NCBI RefSeq assembly: GCF_001424755.1
Contig: NZ_LMRF01000001.1
Span: 145,294 to 209,293, forward strand
Length of the DNA: 64,000 nt
From: Marmoricola sp. Leaf446
Lineage (GTDB): Bacteria > Actinomycetota > Actinomycetes > Propionibacteriales > Nocardioidaceae
Direction: 5' to 3'
Shown: positions 25,441-33,622 of the stretch, piece after piece
How the letters are laid out: each line of letters begins with the position of its first letter
How positions within the stretch are numbered: the stretch's first letter is position 1
The notes under the pieces: model-generated
Told to the model about the DNA's origin: nothing
Databases searched by the model: none
The model's input: only the letters and a program-made list of their open reading frames with translations
Made by a program: the position numbers and the translations under genes

Positions 25441-26451
25441 TCAGGTGGGGGCGGGGCCCGACGAGGCGCGTACGACGAGCTGGGTGGGCAGCACCCGGAC
25501 GGGGGCGTCGTCGCCGGTGGGGGTGGCGCCGGGGCGGGTGAGCGCGGCGAGGGCCTCGACCGCGCGGGCGCCGGCCTCGGTGGTGCGCTCGGCGAGGGTG
25601 GTCAGCGGGGGGTGGCAGAAGTCGGCGCCGAAGACGTCGTCGAAGCCCACGACGCTGAGCTGCTCCGGCACGCGTACGCCGCGCTCGGCGAGGCGCTGGA
25701 GCACCCCGATCGCCAGCACGTCGTTGTGCGCGACCACCGCGGTCGCCCGGGTGGTGAGCACGGCATCAGCGGCGGCCGGGCCGGAGGCGGTGGTGGGGGT
25801 GTAGGGCCCGAAGCGCGTGGCCTCGAGGCCGTGCTCGTCGGCGGCTGCGCGCAGCCCCGCCCAGCGCCGCGCGCCCGACCACGACTCGGCCGGACCGCCG
25901 AGGAAGACGAAGGAGCGGTGGCCGTGGGAGGCCAGGTGGGCGACGATCTGCCGGGTGCCGGAGGCGAAGTCGGCGACCACGCTGGTCAGCCCCGGCGAGG
26001 CCCGGTTGACCAGCACGATCCGGTTGAGCTCGCTCGCCCGCTGCAGCGCCTCGTCGGGCATCCGGGAGGCGGTCAGCACGAACCCGTCGACGGCCGCGCC
26101 CAGCCGCCTGACCAGGCGTTCCTCGTGCACGGGGTTCTCCTGGGCGTCGCCGATCACGAGGGTCAGCCGGGCCTCCGCGGCGGCGCGCTCGGCGCCCTTG
26201 ACCACCCCCGAGAAGTAGGGGTTGGTGATGTCGGGGACGACCAGCGCGACGGTGTTCGTGCGGCCGGACTCCAGCGCCTGCGCGGTGGGGTTGGGGGAGT
26301 AGCCGAGCCGCTCGGCGACGGCGAGCACGTGCTCGCGCGTGACGTGGTTGACCCGGCCGGGGTTGCTGAACGCGCGCGAGACCGTCGAGGTCGCGACCCC
26401 GGCCGCCTCGGCGACCGAGGTGATGGTGGCGCGACGGCGGGGGGCGGGCAC
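25441..26451 (-). CDS. LacI-family regulator of the quinate/shikimate cluster
   Basis: A 336-residue repressor. The helix-turn-helix is at the N-terminus (ATITSVAEAAGVATSTVSRAF, then NHVTREHVLAVAERLGYSPN with the hinge). A periplasmic-binding-like sensor domain follows (TNTVALVVPDITNPYFSGVV to LSVVGFDDV). It is divergent from the transporter and catabolic genes, with a LacI-type palindrome between. It probably responds to quinate, shikimate or a downstream metabolite. The frame is open upstream; GTG 26451 leaves the operator outside the gene. Confidence 0.88.
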   Translation of the reverse strand: MPAPRRRATITSVAEAAGVATSTVSRAFSNPGRVNHVTREHVLAVAERLGYSPNPTAQALESGRTNTVALVVPDITNPYFSGVVKGAERAAAEARLTLVIGDAQENPVHEERLVRRLGAAVDGFVLTASRMPDEALQRASELNRIVLVNRASPGLTSVVADFASGTRQIVAHLASHGHRSFVFLGGPAESWSGARRWAGLRAAADEHGLEATRFGPYTPTTASGPAAADAVLTTRATAVVAHNDVLAIGVLQRLAERGVRVPEQLSVVGFDDVFGADFCHPPLTTLAERTTEAGARAVEALAALTRPGATPTGDDAPVRVLPTQLVVRASSGPAPT

Positions 26452-26482
26452 AGGGCAATGCTGGCACGCGTCTGGCAAATTT

Positions 26483-26498
26483 TGGCAAACGATTGCCA
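26483..26498. promoter_or_regulatory. LacI-type operator
   Basis: TGGCAAACGATTGCCA is a palindrome (7 of 8 pairs symmetric) with the central CG typical of LacI-family sites. A further TGGCAAA half-site lies about 10 bp to the left. The site is between the LacI-family gene and the divergent transporter gene, about 95 bp before the latter. Confidence 0.75.
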
Positions 26499-26593
26499 TG
26501 TGACGGCGGCCACACCTACGTTCGCCCGGACCGCGAGGAGCGAGGACCTCGGGCCGGGAGACAAGTCGGCGAGACCGACGGAGAGGCACCACC

Positions 26594-27964
26594 ATGAGCA
26601 CCATCGACACCCCCGCCACGGGGCACCACGACGAGTCCCGTCGTACGCCGCGGCGCGCGGCGCTCGCCGCCTGGAGCGGCAGCGCCCTGGAGTACTACGA
26701 CCTGGCGATCTACGGCACCGCCGCCGCCCTGGTCTTCCCCAAGATCTTCTTCCCCGAGGGCAACGACTCGGCCGCGACGATCGCGGCGTTCGCGACCTTC
26801 GGCGTCGCCTACGTCGCCCGGCCGTTCGGGTCCTTCCTGATGGGCCACATCGGCGACCGGCTGGGCCGAAAGACGATCCTGATCGGCACGCTGCTGCTGA
26901 TGGGCGTCTCGACCTTCCTCATCGGCTGCCTCCCGACGTACAGCCAGATCGGGCTGTGGGCCCCGGCCCTGCTGGTGCTGCTGCGGCTGCTCCAGGGCCT
27001 CTCGGCCGCGGGCGAGCAGGCCGGCGCCAACTCGATGTCCTTCGAGCACGCACCCGACGACCGTCGCGGCTTCTTCACCAGCTGGACGCTGAGCGGCACC
27101 CAGGGGGGCCAGGTCCTGGCGCCCGCGATCTTCCTGCCGCTGGCCGCCGTGCTGCCCGAGGACGCGCTGCTCAGCTGGGGCTGGCGGGTGCCGTTCTGGC
27201 TCAGCGCCGTCATCGTCGTGCTGGGCTTCGTGATCCGGGCCCGCCTCGACGAGACGCCCGCCTTCCAGGACGACGTCGCCGACAGCGACGAGCCCAAGCG
27301 CGCGCCGCTCAAGGAGCTCTTCGCCGACCACTCGCCGGCCGTGCTGCGCGTCTTCTTCGCCGCCTTCATCGCCATGGTCAACACGATGTTCCAGGTCTTC
27401 GCGCTCAACTTCGCGACGTCCGAGGACTACGGCATCGGCTTCGACTCCTCCTTCATGCTGTGGCTGGCCATCGTGGCCAACCTGGTCGCCATCGCGGTGA
27501 TCCCGTTCTGGGCGATGCTCTCGGACAAGGTCGGGCGCAAGCCGGTCTTCCTCACCGGGCTGGTCGGCAGCGCGGTGCTGGTCACCGCCTTCCTCGGCGC
27601 GATCCGCGCCGGCGACGAGCCGCTCACCTTCGTGCTCGGCGTGGCCCTGGCCGGCGTCGTCTACTCGATGCCCAACGCGGTGTGGCCCGCCACCTACGCG
27701 GAGTACTTCCCCACCAGCGTGCGGCTGTCCGGCATGGCCATCGGCACCCAGTTCGGCTTCGCGCTGGCCGGGTTCACCCCGACCATCGCCGGCGCCCTGA
27801 TGGGCGGCGAGGCCGACAACTGGTGGCGCGTGGCGGCCTTCGCCGTCGGTGCCTGCGTGATCTCCGCGATCGCGGTGCTCAGCGGCCCGGGCAAGACGCA
27901 CACGGTGCCGACGCACCTGGTCGGCGTGCGTGGGGCCCGCACCCCCTCCGCGGCCACGGCATGA
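26594..27964 (+). CDS. MHS-family (shikimate/metabolite:H+ symporter) transporter
   Basis: A 456-residue MFS carrier with 12 membrane segments. ALEYYDLAIYGTAAALVFPKIFF opens the first segment as in ShiA and ProP relatives. The loop 2-3 motif is GHIGDRLGRKTILIGT and the later repeat is WAMLSDKVGRKPVF. It would import shikimate or quinate for the next two enzymes. GGAGAGG precedes the ATG. Its TGA overlaps the next ATG by four bases. Confidence 0.85.
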   Translation: MSTIDTPATGHHDESRRTPRRAALAAWSGSALEYYDLAIYGTAAALVFPKIFFPEGNDSAATIAAFATFGVAYVARPFGSFLMGHIGDRLGRKTILIGTLLLMGVSTFLIGCLPTYSQIGLWAPALLVLLRLLQGLSAAGEQAGANSMSFEHAPDDRRGFFTSWTLSGTQGGQVLAPAIFLPLAAVLPEDALLSWGWRVPFWLSAVIVVLGFVIRARLDETPAFQDDVADSDEPKRAPLKELFADHSPAVLRVFFAAFIAMVNTMFQVFALNFATSEDYGIGFDSSFMLWLAIVANLVAIAVIPFWAMLSDKVGRKPVFLTGLVGSAVLVTAFLGAIRAGDEPLTFVLGVALAGVVYSMPNAVWPATYAEYFPTSVRLSGMAIGTQFGFALAGFTPTIAGALMGGEADNWWRVAAFAVGACVISAIAVLSGPGKTHTVPTHLVGVRGARTPSAATA

Positions 27965-28821
27965 ACAGCGGCTCGGTCTCGCTCGGCCTCGTCGGCGGCG
28001 GCATCGCCCGCTCGCTCACCCCGGCGATGCAGGAGCGGGAGGGCCGCGAGCAGGGCCTGGCGCTGACCTACCGGCTCGTCGACGCCGAGCGCCCCGGCGG
28101 GCGTGGCTTCGGCGTCGACGACCTCGGCGAGGTGCTGGCCTGGGCCGAGCGGTTCGGGCTCGACGGGCTCAACGTCACCCACCCGTTCAAGCAGGCCGTG
28201 GTGCCGCTGCTCGACGACCTGTCCGAGGCGGCGGCCGACCTCGGTGCGGTCAACACCGTGGTGCTGCGCAACGGCCGGCGGGTCGGCCACAACACCGACA
28301 CCACGGGGTACGCCGCGGCCCTCGCCGCCGGCCTGCCCGACGCGCCCCGGGACCGCGTGGTGCTGGTCGGGGCGGGCGGCGCCGGCGTCGCCGTCGGCTA
28401 CGGCCTGCTCGCCGAAGGGGTGGGCCGGCTCGGCGTCCACGACGTCGACGCGGACCGGGCCCACGCCTGCGCCGTACGGCTCTCGAAGCGGTTCGGCGAC
28501 GACGCCGTGGAGGTCGTCACCGACCTGCCCGGCGCGCTGGCCGCGGCCGACGGGCTGGTCAACGCGACGCCGGTCGGGATGCACGGCCACGACGGCCTGC
28601 CGGTCCCGGCCGAGCTGGTGCGCGAGGGCCTGTGGGTCTCCGACGTCGTCTACTTCCCGCTCGAGACCGAGCTGGTCGCGCTGGCCCGCTCACGCGGGTG
28701 CCGGGTGCTGCCCGGTGGCGCGATGGCCGTGCAGCAGGCCGTCGGCGCGTTCGAGCTGTTCACCGGTCGACCGGCCGACGCGGAGCGGATGCAGCGCCAC
28801 TTCCGGGAGCTGACCGCCTGA
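27961..28821 (+). CDS. Shikimate/quinate dehydrogenase (catabolic AroE-like)
   Basis: A 286-residue AroE-fold NAD(P)-dependent dehydrogenase. Substrate-site motifs are SRSLTPAMQ-like GGIARSLTPAMQ, NVTHPFKQAVVPLLD with the catalytic Lys, and AVNTVV. The cofactor loop is VLVGAGGAGVAVGYGL. NATPVGMHG and AVQQAVGAFELFTG close the fold. Context with a transporter and a dehydroshikimate dehydratase indicates oxidation of shikimate or quinate for catabolism, like QsuD. Biosynthetic aroE use cannot be excluded. Confidence 0.88.
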   Translation: MNSGSVSLGLVGGGIARSLTPAMQEREGREQGLALTYRLVDAERPGGRGFGVDDLGEVLAWAERFGLDGLNVTHPFKQAVVPLLDDLSEAAADLGAVNTVVLRNGRRVGHNTDTTGYAAALAAGLPDAPRDRVVLVGAGGAGVAVGYGLLAEGVGRLGVHDVDADRAHACAVRLSKRFGDDAVEVVTDLPGALAAADGLVNATPVGMHGHDGLPVPAELVREGLWVSDVVYFPLETELVALARSRGCRVLPGGAMAVQQAVGAFELFTGRPADAERMQRHFRELTA

Positions 28822-30647
28822 TGCGCACCGGCGTCGCCACGCTGTCTCTCAGCGGTCGCCTCGTGGACAAGCTCCACGCGGCGGCCGCGGCCGGGTTCGA
28901 CGGGGTCGAGGTCTTCGACAACGACCTCATCGGGTGCCCGCTGTCCCCGACCGAGGTGGCCCGGCTCGCGGCCGACCTCGGCCTGACGATCGACCTCTTC
29001 CAGCCGGTGCGGGACGCCGCCGGCGTCGCCCCGGAGGCCTGGCCCGCCACCCGGCGACGCGTGGTGGCCAAGCTCGACGTCGCCCGGGAGCTCGGCGCGC
29101 CCGTCGTGCTGCTGTGCTCCCACGTCGGCGGCGGCTCGGTCGACGACCCCGACCTGACCGCCTCCCAGCTGGCCGAGCTCGGCGACGAGGCCGCCAGGCG
29201 CGGGCTGGTGCTCGCCTACGAGGCGCTGGCCTGGGGACGCCACGTCAACCGGCTGGCCCACGCCTGGGACGTCGTACGCCGCGCCGACCACCGGAGCGTC
29301 ACCCTGGCGGTCGACACCTTCCACGTGCTGGCCCGGGGCGACGACGCGACCGCGCTCGACGGCGTGCCGGGTGAGCGGATCGGCTTCCTCCAGGTGGCCG
29401 ACGCGCCGCTGAAGCAGATGGACGTCCTGGAGTGGAGCCGCCACTTCCGCTGCTTCCCCGGCCAGGGGATGCTCGACGTCACCGGCGTCGTGGCGGCCAC
29501 CCTGGAGGCGGGCTACCGCGGACCGGTCTCGCTCGAGGTGTTCAGCGACGTGGTCCGCGAGTCCGACCAGGCCGTCACCGCGCGCGACGCCTACCGCTCC
29601 CTGGTCTTCCTGGCCGACGAGCTCGCCGCCCGGCTGACCGGCCCCGCGGCCGCGCTGGTCGAGCCGGCGCCGCCCGCCCCCGAGCGGGTCGGCCTGGCCT
29701 TCCTCGAGGTCGCCGACCCCACCCGCGACCCCGCCCTCGAGGCGCTGCTGCGCGGGCTCGGCTTCGCCCGGGTCGGCCGGCACCGCAGCAAGCCGGTGCA
29801 GTGGTGGCGCCAGGGGGAGGCCCACGTCGTGCTCAACCAGACCCCCGGCACCGATCCGCGGGCCCATGCCGTCGGGCTGGCCACGCCCCGGGTCGACACC
29901 GTCGCCGCCCGGGCCGAGGCGCTGCTGTGGCCCGAGGTCGACCGGACCCGCGGGGCGGGGGAGGCGCTGCTGCCCGGCATCACCACGCCCGGCGAGACCC
30001 ACCTGTTCCTCTCCGCCGACCCCGGCGCCCCCGACCACTGGCAGGACGACTTCGTCCTCGACGACGAGCCCGCCCCCACCGGGCGCTGGACCGGCCTCGA
30101 CCACGTCGGCCTCGCCGTGCCGCCGCGCCGGCTCGACGAGGAGATCGGCTTCCTGCGCACCGTGCTGGGCCTGGAGGCCGCGCCCGTGGAGGAGTTCTGG
30201 GAGCCGCAGGGGCGGCTGCGCAGCCGTGCCCTCGAGCCCCGTCACGGCGGTGCGCGGATCGTCGTCAACGTGGCGGAGGGGGCCGGCTGCGGCGCCGACG
30301 GCCCGGGCACGGGGGTGACCCAGGTGGCCTTCGCCTGCACCGACCTGCTGGCCGAGGTGCGCTCCCTCCGCGAGCGGGGGGTGCGCCTGATGCAGGTGCC
30401 CGACAACTACTACGTCGACCTCGCCGCCCGCACCGACCTGGACCCGGACCGGATCGCCGAGCTGCGCGAGCACCAGGTGCTCCTGGACCGCGCGGGCCCG
30501 GGCGAGCGGGGGAGGGGCGAGCTGCTCCACGTCTACACCGACGTGCTGGCCCCGGGGTTCTACGTCGAGCTGCTGGAGCGTCGGGACGGCTACGCGGGGT
30601 ACGGCAGCGTCAACACCCAGCTCCGGCTCGCCGTCCAGCGGCGGTGA
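28821..30647 (+). CDS. qsuB: 3-dehydroshikimate dehydratase fused to a VOC/HPPD-like domain (QsuB type)
   Basis: A 608-residue two-domain enzyme. Residues 1 to about 275 are a xylose-isomerase-like TIM barrel (AAGFDGVEVFDNDL, LAYEALAWGRHVN, LAVDTFHV, VSLEVFSD), which dehydrates 3-dehydroshikimate to protocatechuate. About residues 290-608 resemble 4-hydroxyphenylpyruvate dioxygenase with two VOC modules (GLDHVGLAVP and FYVELLERRDGYAGYG). The domain order matches corynebacterial QsuB (about 618 residues). Its ATG overlaps the dehydrogenase TGA by one base. Dehydroquinate dehydratase is not in the window. Confidence 0.88.
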   Translation: MRTGVATLSLSGRLVDKLHAAAAAGFDGVEVFDNDLIGCPLSPTEVARLAADLGLTIDLFQPVRDAAGVAPEAWPATRRRVVAKLDVARELGAPVVLLCSHVGGGSVDDPDLTASQLAELGDEAARRGLVLAYEALAWGRHVNRLAHAWDVVRRADHRSVTLAVDTFHVLARGDDATALDGVPGERIGFLQVADAPLKQMDVLEWSRHFRCFPGQGMLDVTGVVAATLEAGYRGPVSLEVFSDVVRESDQAVTARDAYRSLVFLADELAARLTGPAAALVEPAPPAPERVGLAFLEVADPTRDPALEALLRGLGFARVGRHRSKPVQWWRQGEAHVVLNQTPGTDPRAHAVGLATPRVDTVAARAEALLWPEVDRTRGAGEALLPGITTPGETHLFLSADPGAPDHWQDDFVLDDEPAPTGRWTGLDHVGLAVPPRRLDEEIGFLRTVLGLEAAPVEEFWEPQGRLRSRALEPRHGGARIVVNVAEGAGCGADGPGTGVTQVAFACTDLLAEVRSLRERGVRLMQVPDNYYVDLAARTDLDPDRIAELREHQVLLDRAGPGERGRGELLHVYTDVLAPGFYVELLERRDGYAGYGSVNTQLRLAVQRR

Positions 30648-30735: not shown

Positions 30736-30764
30736 TCGATAACACTCGTGCACCGACCTATCCT
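30736..30764 (+). promoter_or_regulatory. Candidate promoter of the B12-sensor operon
   Basis: TCGATA (30736-30741) and TATCCT (30759-30764) are 17 bp apart, and TATCCT ends six bases before the ATG at 30771. The surrounding 120-bp region is the least GC-rich of this part, with T runs near 30660-30710. Confidence 0.5.
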
Positions 30765-30770
30765 CGACCC

Positions 30771-31802
30771 ATGACCGCAACGTGGGAGTCGCCTGCCCTC
30801 GGCGGCATCCCCCTCGACCCGCGCGTCATGGCCGAAGAGGTCGCGGCCGACCTGGGTCTGCTCTCCGGCTCGGTGATCGAGGTCGTGCGGCTCCACCTCG
30901 AGGCGCTCGACAGCGCGCTCTCGCTGGGCGTCCCCGAGCTGCTGGCCGACCAGCTGCGGTGGCAGGCGGTGCGGCTGGAGAGCGCCGGCGCCCCGTTCGG
31001 CCCCGAGGACGTCGACAAGGCGGTCCGCGAGGCGCTCGGTCCGCACCTGACCCCGCGTCAGCTCGCGCAGGTCGAGGAGCTGCAGAACAGCGCGGCCGTG
31101 CTCGGTGCGAGCGGCGCCCACGCCGACTCGCTCGTCGCCCTGCCCGAGGGGCCGGCCCACGACTACCTCGCGGCGGCGCTGGCCGGTCACCGCGACGACG
31201 CCATCGCCGTGGTGCGCGAGGCGATGCTCTCCGACGTCAGCGTCGCCGACATCATGCTCGGCATCCTGCAGCCCGCCCAGGTCGAGCTCGGCCGGCTGTG
31301 GGAGGCCGGGGAGATCTCGATCGCCCACGAGCACTACACCACCGCCATCACCCAGCTCGCCCTGTCGCTGCTCTACCCCCGGCTGCTGCTCAACCGCACC
31401 CTGCTGGGCCGCAGCATCGTGGCGACCAGCGTCGGCTCGGAGGCCCACGAGGTGGGCATCCGGATGATCTCCGACCTCATGGAGCAGGCCGGCTGGCGCA
31501 CCGCCTACCTCGGCGCCGACGTCCCGCACGCCGACGTCATCGAGCGGGTCGCCCAGCACCGCGCCGACGTGCTCGCCGTCTCGGCGACCATGGCCGGTCA
31601 CATCCGCGGCGTCCGCGAGCTCATCACGATGCTCCGCGCCGACCCGCGCTGCGCCGGCGTCCGGGTCCTGGTGGGCGGTCGCCCCTTCACCATCAACCCA
31701 CAGCTGGCCGACCTGGTCGGTGCCGACGGCTGGGCCCCCGGGGCCTCCGAGGCGCTCGAGATCTGCCGGACGTGGACGGAGGACAGGTCCCGTGCCCGTT
31801 GA
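30771..31802 (+). CDS. Cobalamin-binding protein with CarH-type light-sensor motif, no MerR domain
   Basis: A 343-residue soluble protein. A helical region ends in LWEAGEISIAHEH, a Wx9EH motif (Trp177, Glu187, His188) that caps adenosylcobalamin in CarH/LitR photoreceptors. A B12 Rossmann fold follows: E224-x-H226-x-x-G229, then 41 residues to S271-A-T, then 28 residues to G302-G303. These spacings equal those of the DxHxxG-x41-SxL-x26-28-GG family; His226 would be the lower ligand. The N-terminal 110 residues are helical and show no MerR DNA-binding domain. It overlaps a histidine kinase gene by 11 bp. Confidence 0.85.
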   Translation: MTATWESPALGGIPLDPRVMAEEVAADLGLLSGSVIEVVRLHLEALDSALSLGVPELLADQLRWQAVRLESAGAPFGPEDVDKAVREALGPHLTPRQLAQVEELQNSAAVLGASGAHADSLVALPEGPAHDYLAAALAGHRDDAIAVVREAMLSDVSVADIMLGILQPAQVELGRLWEAGEISIAHEHYTTAITQLALSLLYPRLLLNRTLLGRSIVATSVGSEAHEVGIRMISDLMEQAGWRTAYLGADVPHADVIERVAQHRADVLAVSATMAGHIRGVRELITMLRADPRCAGVRVLVGGRPFTINPQLADLVGADGWAPGASEALEICRTWTEDRSRAR

Positions 31803-32559
31803 GGAGCCCGGCCACGAGCTGCTCCTGAGGGAGCTGGGTCGCATCAACAGCGAGCTGGCCTCCCAGCGACGCCTGAGCGCCATGACGGTGCACGACCTCG
31901 GCAACCCGGCGCAGGTGATCATGGGGCTGAGCGAGCTGCTGCTGGACCACCCCACGCTCGACCCGTTCGTGCGCACCCGCGTGGAGCAGCTGCACCGCTC
32001 CGCGCTGACGATGTCGGCGCTGATCTCCGACCTCAACAACGGCTTCTCGATCGACGACCAGAACCACCTCGACGTGCAGCGCATCGACCTCGTCGAGCTG
32101 GTCACCTCGCTGGTGGAGCGCCAGCGGGTCCTGGCCAACGCCAAGGACATGACGATCCTGCTGCTGGTCGACCAGCCGCGCGACGCCGGCTGCTGGGTCG
32201 ACGGCGACCCGGTCAAGCTCGAGCGCGCGCTGGGCAACCTGCTCGGCAACGCCATCAAGTTCTCCCCGCCGCGCAGCACCGTCTCGGTGGCCCTCGACCG
32301 CGGTCTCGACAACGCCAAGATCGCCGTCCACGACGAGGGCCCCGGCATCAGCCCGCTCGGCCTGCAGCGCATCTTCGAGGTCTTCCACCGCGAGCGCGGC
32401 ACCGACCACGTGCCGGGCCTCGGCCTCGGGCTGTTCATCACCAAGCAGATCGCCGAGAGCCACGGCGGCTCGGTCGACGCCCGCTCCGAGCCCGGCCGCG
32501 GGTCGACCTTCCTGCTCGAGATCCCGCTGGCCGTCGAGGCCTACGCCGACCTTGCCTGA
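31792..32559 (+). CDS. Soluble sensor histidine kinase paired with the B12 protein
   Basis: A 255-residue kinase with no membrane segment and no PAS, GAF or HAMP domain. The dimerisation/phosphoacceptor region has His34 in MTVHDLGNPAQVIMG. The ATPase part has N153 in NLLGNAIKFSP, G1 DEGPGI (181-186) and G2 GLGLGL (209-214). GTG 31792 overlaps the B12-protein gene by 11 bp, so the B12 protein is the natural candidate for its sensory input. No response regulator is adjacent. Confidence 0.88.
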   Translation: MPVEEPGHELLLRELGRINSELASQRRLSAMTVHDLGNPAQVIMGLSELLLDHPTLDPFVRTRVEQLHRSALTMSALISDLNNGFSIDDQNHLDVQRIDLVELVTSLVERQRVLANAKDMTILLLVDQPRDAGCWVDGDPVKLERALGNLLGNAIKFSPPRSTVSVALDRGLDNAKIAVHDEGPGISPLGLQRIFEVFHRERGTDHVPGLGLGLFITKQIAESHGGSVDARSEPGRGSTFLLEIPLAVEAYADLA

Positions 32560-33622
32560 CCAGGTCGCCCCCCGCGACCTGCCGAGCACGGGACGCGGTG
32601 CGTGGGCCGACCCCGGGGTCGAGGAGGTCGCTCCCGGCGTCCACCGGATGCCGCTCCCGCTGCCGATGGACGGGTTGCGCGCGGTCAACGTCTACGTCGT
32701 CGAGGGCGAGGACGGACTGACCCTGGTCGACGGCGGCTGGGCGATCCCCGACTCCCGGACCGTGTTCGAGGACGGGCTGCGCCGGCTCGGGCACGCGCCG
32801 TCCGACGTACGCCGGTTCCTGGTCACCCACATGCACCGCGACCACTACACCCAGGCCCGCGTGCTCGGCACCGAGCTGGGCTGCCCCGTGGTGCTGGGGT
32901 CGGGCGAGCGACCCAACCTCGCGAGCGTGCACGCCGACGCCGAGGCCGACGACACGCGGCAGGAGGGCACGCGGGCGCGGCTGCGCTCCGCCGGGGCCGA
33001 GCACCTCCACGCGGCCTGGCTGGAGCTGGCCCCGCGCCGCCCCGACGCCCTCGACGCCTACGCCCTGCCCGACACCTGGCTCGAGCGCGACCAGGACCTC
33101 GACGTGGCCGGCCGACGGCTGCGGGCCGTGGCCACCCCGGGGCACACCCGCGGCCACTACGTCTTCGCCGACGAGGCCGCCTCGCTGCTCTTCGCCGGCG
33201 ACCACGTGCTGTCGACGATCACCCCCTCGATCGGCTTCGAGCCGGCGTACGTCCAGCAGCCGCTGCGCGACTACCTCTCCTCGCTGGCCAAGGTCCTGGC
33301 GCTGCCCGACCTGACGCTGCTGCCCGCCCACGGGCCGGTCACGGCGTCGTCCCACGCCCGCGTCCACGAGCTGCTCGAGCACCACGACGTGCGGCTCGCC
33401 CAGTCGCTCGAGGCCGTCCGCGGCGGAGCCCGCACCGCCTGGGAGGTCGCCTGCGCGCTGCCGTGGACCCGGCGCGAGCGGCGCATCGACGAGCTGGGCC
33501 CCTTCGACCAGGCGCTGGCCGCCTTCGAGACGCTCGCCCACCTCGAGCTGCTCGCGCTGCGGGCCGACCTCGCCCGGCGCCCGGGCGAGACCGTGGAGTT
33601 CGCGCCCCCGCACCGCCGCTAG
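32552..33622 (+). CDS. Metallo-beta-lactamase-fold hydrolase
   Basis: A 356-residue MBL-fold protein. VNVYVVEGEDGLTLVDGG begins the fold, THMHRDHYTQ supplies HxHxDH metal ligands, and TPGHTRGHYVF and FAGDHVL give the later His and Asp. The C-terminal 130 residues (after LLPAHGPV) are a helical cap with an LACTB2-like winged-helix flavour. TTG 32552 overlaps the kinase stop by eight bases, so it belongs to the same operon. Function unknown; thioester or ester hydrolysis is possible. Confidence 0.85.
   Translation: MPDQVAPRDLPSTGRGAWADPGVEEVAPGVHRMPLPLPMDGLRAVNVYVVEGEDGLTLVDGGWAIPDSRTVFEDGLRRLGHAPSDVRRFLVTHMHRDHYTQARVLGTELGCPVVLGSGERPNLASVHADAEADDTRQEGTRARLRSAGAEHLHAAWLELAPRRPDALDAYALPDTWLERDQDLDVAGRRLRAVATPGHTRGHYVFADEAASLLFAGDHVLSTITPSIGFEPAYVQQPLRDYLSSLAKVLALPDLTLLPAHGPVTASSHARVHELLEHHDVRLAQSLEAVRGGARTAWEVACALPWTRRERRIDELGPFDQALAAFETLAHLELLALRADLARRPGETVEFAPPHRR

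Follow-up and report, generated by a model that had tools for sequence, protein, structure and literature searches.

How does a histidine kinase without any sensory domain of its own come to receive a signal? The question is raised by two overlapping genes in the 64,000-nucleotide stretch of the Marmoricola sp. Leaf446 genome that we analysed (contig NZ_LMRF01000001.1, positions 145,294 to 209,293; hereafter the window, whose numbering is used for all coordinates that carry no locus name). Gene 1 (30771..31802, + strand, ATG start; open reading frame, Pfam and AF2) encodes a sensor-type protein of 343 residues that combines a photoglobin-type domain with a B12-binding part, and gene 2 (31792..32559, + strand; best start GTG at 31792, stop at 32559) encodes a soluble histidine kinase of 255 residues. 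The 11-bp overlap between them (31792-31802), which the initial annotation had placed correctly, recurs identically in three more species (L024, L026 and L027), i.e., in four species of the genus. No membrane-like segment was found in either protein. Upstream of gene 1 a possible -10 element, TATCCT (30759..30764, + strand), may give rise to a leaderless transcript beginning at the ATG; it belongs to a CCGA..TA.C region partly kept in the four species, whose intergenic stretches (n=4 compared) share little except CCGA..TA. The pair is preceded by an MFS transporter gene and a TIM-barrel/HPPD-like enzyme gene (Pfam), with LacI and AroE-like genes recognised by eye, and is followed by genes for a metallo-hydrolase and a solute-binding protein (Pfam). 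The genes of 25441-30647 (LacI-like regulator, MFS transporter, shikimate dehydrogenase-like and dehydratase-dioxygenase-like) perhaps serve shikimate/quinate use; the downstream hydrolase (32552-33622) has a metallo-beta-lactamase fold and a called start 8 bp inside the kinase gene, and is kept in L024 and L026 and not called in L027. The neighbors on both sides offer no clue to the output of the pair.

Pfam recognised two domains in gene 1, together spanning residues 130-329, and nothing else: a four-helix cap over cobalamin (PF02607, 57 bits, residues 130-201; 31158..31373, + strand) and a B12-binding Rossmann domain (PF02310, 89 bits, residues 215-329; 31413..31757, + strand) that is also present in the AF2 model, which for the whole protein has a pLDDT of 90.8 and a pTM of 0.89. 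Two motifs reported in the initial annotation, Wx9EH and the cobalamin motif E/DxHxxG-x41-SxL/T-x28-GG, are both exact, the first as the adenosyl-pocket motif W177-x9-E187-H188 (31299..31334, + strand; sequence and alignment) and the second as E224-x-H226-x2-G229-x41-S271-x-T273-x28-G302-G303. His226 (31446-31448, + strand) is predicted by alignment to be the lower cobalt ligand. W177, E187, H188 and H226 are invariant in an alignment of 26 homologues, the window included, and none of the four window-type species has lost any of them; in a wider table of residues one protein, L102, has Gln at the H188 position and nonetheless has a partner kinase. The genome itself contains eight B12-binding places, and only at two of them does a predicted gene carry W-x9-EH, namely gene 1 and a paralogue that is 44% identical to it.

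What, then, occupies the first ~125 residues of gene 1, where Pfam gave no match? By its sequence profile and its model the segment of residues ~14-113 (30810..31109, + strand), overlooked in the initial annotation, is a non-heme globin of the photoglobin/phycobiliprotein type. A profile of 26 homologous N-domains searched against the PDB found the C-terminal biliverdin globin of SasPcob (8j2w, chain residues 250-335) at E = 5e-13, as well as phycocyanin (7e-5) and AbPcob (1e-4). AF2 gave the N-domain five helices (pLDDT 88), and a structure aligner matched this model to the RsbR stressosome globin (3zta; Z 10.3, rmsd 3.7, 112 aligned) and to SasPcob 227-345 (8j2w; Z 9.4, rmsd 3.6, 106 aligned), with smURFP and the ApcE bilin domain also among the top matches; Z scores of such size can by themselves be common for helical models, and the sequence profile is the stronger evidence. 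We base the globin assignment on the profile and the structure alignment, and not on Foldseek, which for the N-domain alone gave nothing below E 0.001 (best 0.86, the ApcE bilin domain). Furthermore, the N-domain of a relative, L100, exceeds the Pfam Phycobilisome cut-off (23.9 vs 22.2 bits). Because profile, AF2 model, aligner and the Pfam match of L100 point the same way, we take gene 1 to be a photoglobin-B12 protein, with globin and B12 domain in one chain, whose domain order is reversed relative to that of the crystallised photocobilins.

Photocobilins, and not the CarH/LitR photoreceptors named in the initial annotation, are the closest known proteins, as the best PDB sequence matches of gene 1 are the photocobilins 8j2y (5.3e-23) and 8j2w/8j2x (1e-20), whereas the best CarH match has an E-value of 3.5e-7, weaker than the best photocobilin by ~16 orders of magnitude. 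CarH/LitR proteins (5c8d and others) share with gene 1 the B12 core, W-x9-EH and the His ligand, but they are defined by an N-terminal MerR DNA-binding domain; gene 1, for which the lack of such a domain had been rightly noted (no MerR/HTH Pfam match), has its globin in that place and a kinase as its output. When the whole model was submitted to Foldseek, CtMerR, photocobilins, methionine synthase and CarH filled the first dozen rows, and corrinoid proteins were listed too. The best row was the B12 domain of CtMerR (8jbs), which resembles the B12 half of gene 1, although CtMerR is a MerR regulator without a globin; the alignments to photocobilins extended over ~203-217 columns, the length of the B12 half, in line with the swapped domain order. 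PHROGs contained no family for gene 1. The photoglobin family, reportedly described by Schneider et al. in 2022, is said to couple a non-heme globin to a B12 domain in signalling contexts, an arrangement like that of gene 1.

The photocobilins SasPcob and AbDPcob (8j2w/x and 8j2y; PMC10979010, in the sections consulted here and below) share with gene 1 the photoglobin-type globin, the four-helix cap, the B12 Rossmann domain, the W..EH and DxH motifs and an equivalent of Trp296. They differ in that their globin comes last and that of gene 1 first, in having Asp270 where gene 1 has Val, and in that the partner of gene 1 is a histidine kinase; gene 1 is known from its sequence, whereas for photocobilins light chemistry, a change of the dimer and enzyme regulation through protein-protein contact have been published (PMC10979010). 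Section 9 of the same paper mentions photocobilins with a C-terminal B12 domain. AerR, likewise a B12 photoreceptor that works through another protein, has the transcription factor CrtJ as its partner (PMC6199135, in the part consulted). A search of titles and the beginnings of abstracts, whose scope did not extend to the photoglobin paper, returned no pair of B12 photosensor and histidine kinase like that of genes 1 and 2.

Is light what gene 1 senses? Both B12-domain motifs of photocobilins (W-x9/10-EH and E/DxH) occur in it. The four-element SignatureFinder CBD light signature (GxxW, EH, GxxH, GxxxP) is incomplete: GRLW, EH and GADVP are present, and GxxH reads SEAH (SxxH). That substitution would suit a pair that responds to how much B12 is present, to its form (adenosyl-, methyl- or hydroxo-) or to redox state, and to which light is irrelevant; the same pocket would serve, and the genome encodes further B12-binding proteins as well as a cobalamin adenosyltransferase (PF01923). 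The W-x9-EH motif and the globin, however, are those of proven light sensors (PMC10979010 and PMC11796333, each in the parts consulted), and W177, E187 and H188 are kept in 26/26 aligned sequences. We judge a sensor of cobalamin status unlikely, and on the sequences we favor light over B12 status.

Which chromophore would absorb the light? In SasPcob, Trp296 contacts both corrin and bilin, and Asp270 holds rings A-C of biliverdin (PMC10979010). The equivalent of Trp296 in gene 1 is Trp64 (30960..30962, + strand), aligned by way of a 6-residue offset between chain numbering and published numbering, and at the site of Asp270 stands Val38 (30882..30884, + strand), with Glu37 one place earlier. 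The missing Asp is not an absolute bar to biliverdin, because AbPcob has His at this site and yet binds biliverdin weakly (PMC10979010). At that site the window-type Nocardioidaceae proteins of the residue table (n=11) all carry V, L, I or A, and in 10/11 the preceding residue is acidic, whereas Asp or Glu is found in most distant globin-first relatives. The Pfam profile for heme oxygenase, PF01126, found no match in the genome of the window and matches in 3/29 genomes of the family searched; the figures are 0/7 for genomes with only window-type proteins vs 2/4 for those with the Asp-bearing Nocardioides/Pedococcus type, where G175, which has both types, was counted. In the distant genomes searched, many of which are MAGs, the profile was likewise unmatched except in G866, and any tie between the lost bilin Asp and the missing heme oxygenase is suggestive at most. 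Because an aliphatic residue replaces the Asp and the genome lacks a Pfam heme oxygenase, the bilin pocket in this branch has probably lost biliverdin, which would leave B12 as the only chromophore. The same data bear on the proposal that the globin is the true sensor, of a bilin or another small ligand, and B12 structural or modulating: a globin is present throughout the globin-first set and the distant relatives mostly keep Asp or Glu, but the replacement in 11/11 proteins of the branch and the scarcity of PF01126 make this distinctly improbable for gene 1.

The kinase itself appears complete. As the initial annotation had it, no sensory domain accompanies the HisKA dimerisation/phosphoacceptor domain (31864..32037, + strand; His34 at 31891-31893) and the HATPase_c domain (32203..32532, + strand), which are all that Pfam found; His34 and the N/G1/G2 boxes (N153, D181-G183-G185 and G209-G213) are intact. 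There is no response regulator in the 64-kb window, and hence none linked to the gene pair; genome-wide there are 27 receiver domains over the cut-off and 31 HisKA matches.

Is the pairing of this kinase with gene 1 more than an accident of position? Relatives of gene 1 occur in 10/197 genomes of the family and in 5/24 of the genus, and an alignment-based scan of genome contigs gave 64 loci. We assembled 40 globin-first proteins (window, L023-L028, three of L029, L030-L034, L036-L039, L041-L046, L048, L052, L054, L058-L063, L068, L073 and L099-L102; L035, L040, L051, L053 and L057 were dropped as duplicates, and the L029 copies passed the first globin profile and failed the second). The control was a set of 28 globin-last proteins, namely 25 from a Saccharothrix query across the phylum (L135-L155 and L158-L161) and three from the contig scan (L078, L082 and L094); L156, L157 and L162 were dropped as globin-first, and a C-terminal globin was detected by profile (E up to 1) in 26/28, L148 and L153 being placed only by their overall match. 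Kinases were sought with a HisKA-type profile on all loci, and HisKA_3 kinases by two single queries and by Pfam on ten selected proteins, the counts being for these classes, with HWE and others outside their scope. An adjacent or fused same-strand histidine kinase accompanies 28/40 globin-first proteins, window included, vs 0/28 globin-last ones, 25 of which had flanks of <= 1.5 kb and two of which (L143 and L147) adjoin a kinase gene that converges with them from the opposite strand and was not counted. The conserved co-occurrence that the initial annotation had offered as a check is borne out, and the Fisher p values, 3e-9 for 27/40 vs 0/28 and 3e-7 for Actinomycetota only (14/22 vs 0/28), both from before L102 was added, are optimistic, since related genomes were counted apart and many of the 40 are related species rather than independent events. 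Judged by the titles of the records, the pairing extends over ~9 phyla (Actinomycetota, Ignavibacteriales, Acidobacteriota, Planctomycetes, Paenibacillus, Myxococcota, Proteobacteria, Spirochaetes and Chloroflexi), and it is not due to chance.

These counts also bear on whether gene 1 might be the corrinoid protein of a methyltransferase that stands beside a kinase by accident. MtgC and MtbC are its top NCBIfam matches and Foldseek listed corrinoid proteins, as noted above, but the scores fall far short of the cut-offs (80.8 vs 370 bits for MtgC, 76.0 vs 350 for MtbC), no methyltransferase occurs among the scanned neighbors, and the extra globin and the 28/40 pairing speak against it as well; we give this explanation hardly any credence.

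No recognised same-strand kinase adjoins the other 12/40 (L023, L025, the three L029 copies, L052, L058-L060, L063, L100 and L101). One of these is the paralogue in the genome of the window (L023:7475-8653, own genome C1:1638474-1639652), which has a C-terminal extension of ~55-60 residues and a PAS-HisKA_3 kinase farther away, with two genes in between; its orthologue L025 likewise lacks an adjoining kinase. At L029:7191-10579 (G040) three globin-first B12 genes stand in tandem, and the third has lost EH and other pocket residues. Outputs other than kinases were seen as well, such as a GGDEF domain fused to the globin-first B12 protein of L100. On an Ilyobacter polytropus plasmid (L168:3821-5864) a B12 protein gene, without a globin match, overlaps a GGDEF gene. 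It is one of the 9 of 26 plasmid records examined, the others being six from Azospirillum with a kinase and two from Skermanella without; Azospirillum brasilense Sp7, an organism used in the laboratory, carries a relative of the sensor-kinase pair. An ORF for a SpoIIE-type phosphatase lies near 11/28 globin-last genes, and in L135-L138, L140, L142, L148, L151 and L160 such an ORF is followed by the globin-last photocobilin gene. Four Bacteroidota loci (L066, L067, L071 and L076) have short B12-only proteins without a globin between large histidine kinases; L066 and the similar L072 show the W-EH motif.

In two cases the partners are naturally fused. L039 (Planctomycetaceae) has photoglobin, B12 domain, HisKA, HATPase and receiver (71.9 bits) in a single open frame and retains an intact HELRGP, and L031:7974-9761 encodes a photoglobin-B12-kinase fusion of 595 residues in which the phosphoacceptor His is replaced (REMVNP), so that its kinase part is a probable pseudokinase.

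If the kinases are dedicated partners, do they bear a common mark? Many of them have a coil, [ILM]N[NS]E-L-x2-3-QR, before the phosphoacceptor helix, and in the window kinase it reads INSELASQRR (residues 18-27; 31843..31872, + strand). The strict form of this motif, which was set post hoc after most partner kinases had been inspected (L099 was unseen at that time), occurs in 13/29 partner kinases vs 0/43 other kinases in the fetched loci, and the loose form in 20/29 vs 0/43, leaving 9/29 without even the loose form. The 29 include L047, L050 and L056, whose B12 genes have no detected globin, and exclude the window and L102; the 43 include the kinases of globin-last loci, and also that of L064, even though a B12 gene and a globin-like ORF precede it. 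In the held-out plasmid loci the strict coil is present in 6/6 Azospirillum kinases, all of one genus, and absent from the neighboring kinase in L167. 

Another mark is an N-terminal kinase domain of ~135 residues, common to L037, L038, L042-L046 and L048 from other phyla and other Actinomycetota, to which Pfam gave no match at E up to 0.01. A profile from these eight N-termini also finds L099, L056, L102, L047, L064 and all six Azospirillum loci, and in L167 it matches a small ORF just upstream of the kinase; it has no match in globin-last loci. The L102 kinase that bears it is of the HisKA_3 class, and the domain has the appearance of a docking domain for the B12 sensor, one that survived a change of kinase class. 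The profile does not match the window kinase (-0.2 bits), nor those of L024, L026-L028, L030-L034, L036, L039, L041, L050, L054, L061, L062, L068 and L073. At L064:3-3536 (Corallococcus) a B12 gene, a separate ORF with a weak globin profile match and then a kinase that weakly matches the N-terminal domain follow one another, as if the domains had been split.

We consider it moderately probable that gene 1 is a light sensor based on adenosylcobalamin which acts in trans on the orphan kinase of gene 2, the two forming one split two-component input unit. This reading builds on the observed anatomy of the genes, the homologies of their domains, the conservation of the pairing, the two natural fusions and the common coil, from which we infer cofactor binding, photochemistry, contact and the direction of the switch. 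The cobalamin adenosyltransferase of the genome speaks for it too. Because of its homology to photocobilins, gene 1 would be expected to hold adenosylcobalamin in the dark, between the helical cap (W177, E187-H188) and the Rossmann domain with His226 on the cobalt, while the globin would cover the edge of the corrin through Trp64 and the protein would form a dimer. Green light would then break the Co-C bond and rearrange the dimer. Given the overlap, the fusions and the marks of the kinases, the signal would pass to the kinase by direct contact, probably at the coil before the phosphoacceptor helix, autophosphorylation would be switched, and the phosphoryl group would go to an unlinked response regulator. 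The initial annotation had proposed that light, by way of B12, or B12 status controls the kinase; what stands of this is that a sensor-type protein is tied to a sensor-less kinase by the conserved overlap, the pairing in several phyla, two fusions and the kinase marks, and what changes is the closest family, photocobilins in place of CarH/LitR.

Several observations count against this reading: the 12/40 proteins without a kinase, the GGDEF outputs, SxxH in place of GxxH, the Gln of L102, the post hoc choice of the coil, the absence of the N-terminal domain from the window kinase, the lost His of L031 and the lack of a regulator in the window. Could the pair function with a sensor that is mainly a scaffold or inhibitor and has become insensitive to light and B12 in the branch of the window? 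The bilin Asp is lost, and against L026 and L027 dN/dS is higher for the kinase (0.40, 0.52) than for the sensor (0.25, 0.33), both being < 0.1 against the near-identical L024; but all four window-type species retain the pocket residues W177, E187, H188 and H226, and we rate such a loss of sensing as very improbable.

The family of gene 1 shifts from CarH-like to photocobilin-like. The interesting part is the class as a whole, the globin-first B12 sensors with their kinases. As a joint proposal, which we advance tentatively and hold to be somewhat more doubtful than probable, globin-first photocobilin-like proteins would supply the sensing half in a widespread, undescribed class of two-component systems gated by light. 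The photoreceptor would work, in trans or within one fused chain, on dedicated kinases recognizable by the coil N-N/S-E-L-x2-3-QR and, outside Nocardioidaceae, by an unnamed docking domain found even on a kinase of the HisKA_3 class. A globin in first place would go with a kinase, and a globin in last place with a phosphatase or another output. The Nocardioides-type members would have given up the bilin and would lack the docking domain, with B12 as the sole light sensor and the coil as the sole contact. B12 photoreceptors are already proven to control gene repression, in the case of CarH, and a diguanylate cyclase, in that of photocobilin. If our reading is true, B12-based sensing of green light would reach into two-component signalling by way of a histidine kinase, the naturally split pair of sensor and kinase would be a handy optogenetic part, and the pair would allow one to test clearly how a signal gets to a kinase that has no sensory domain.
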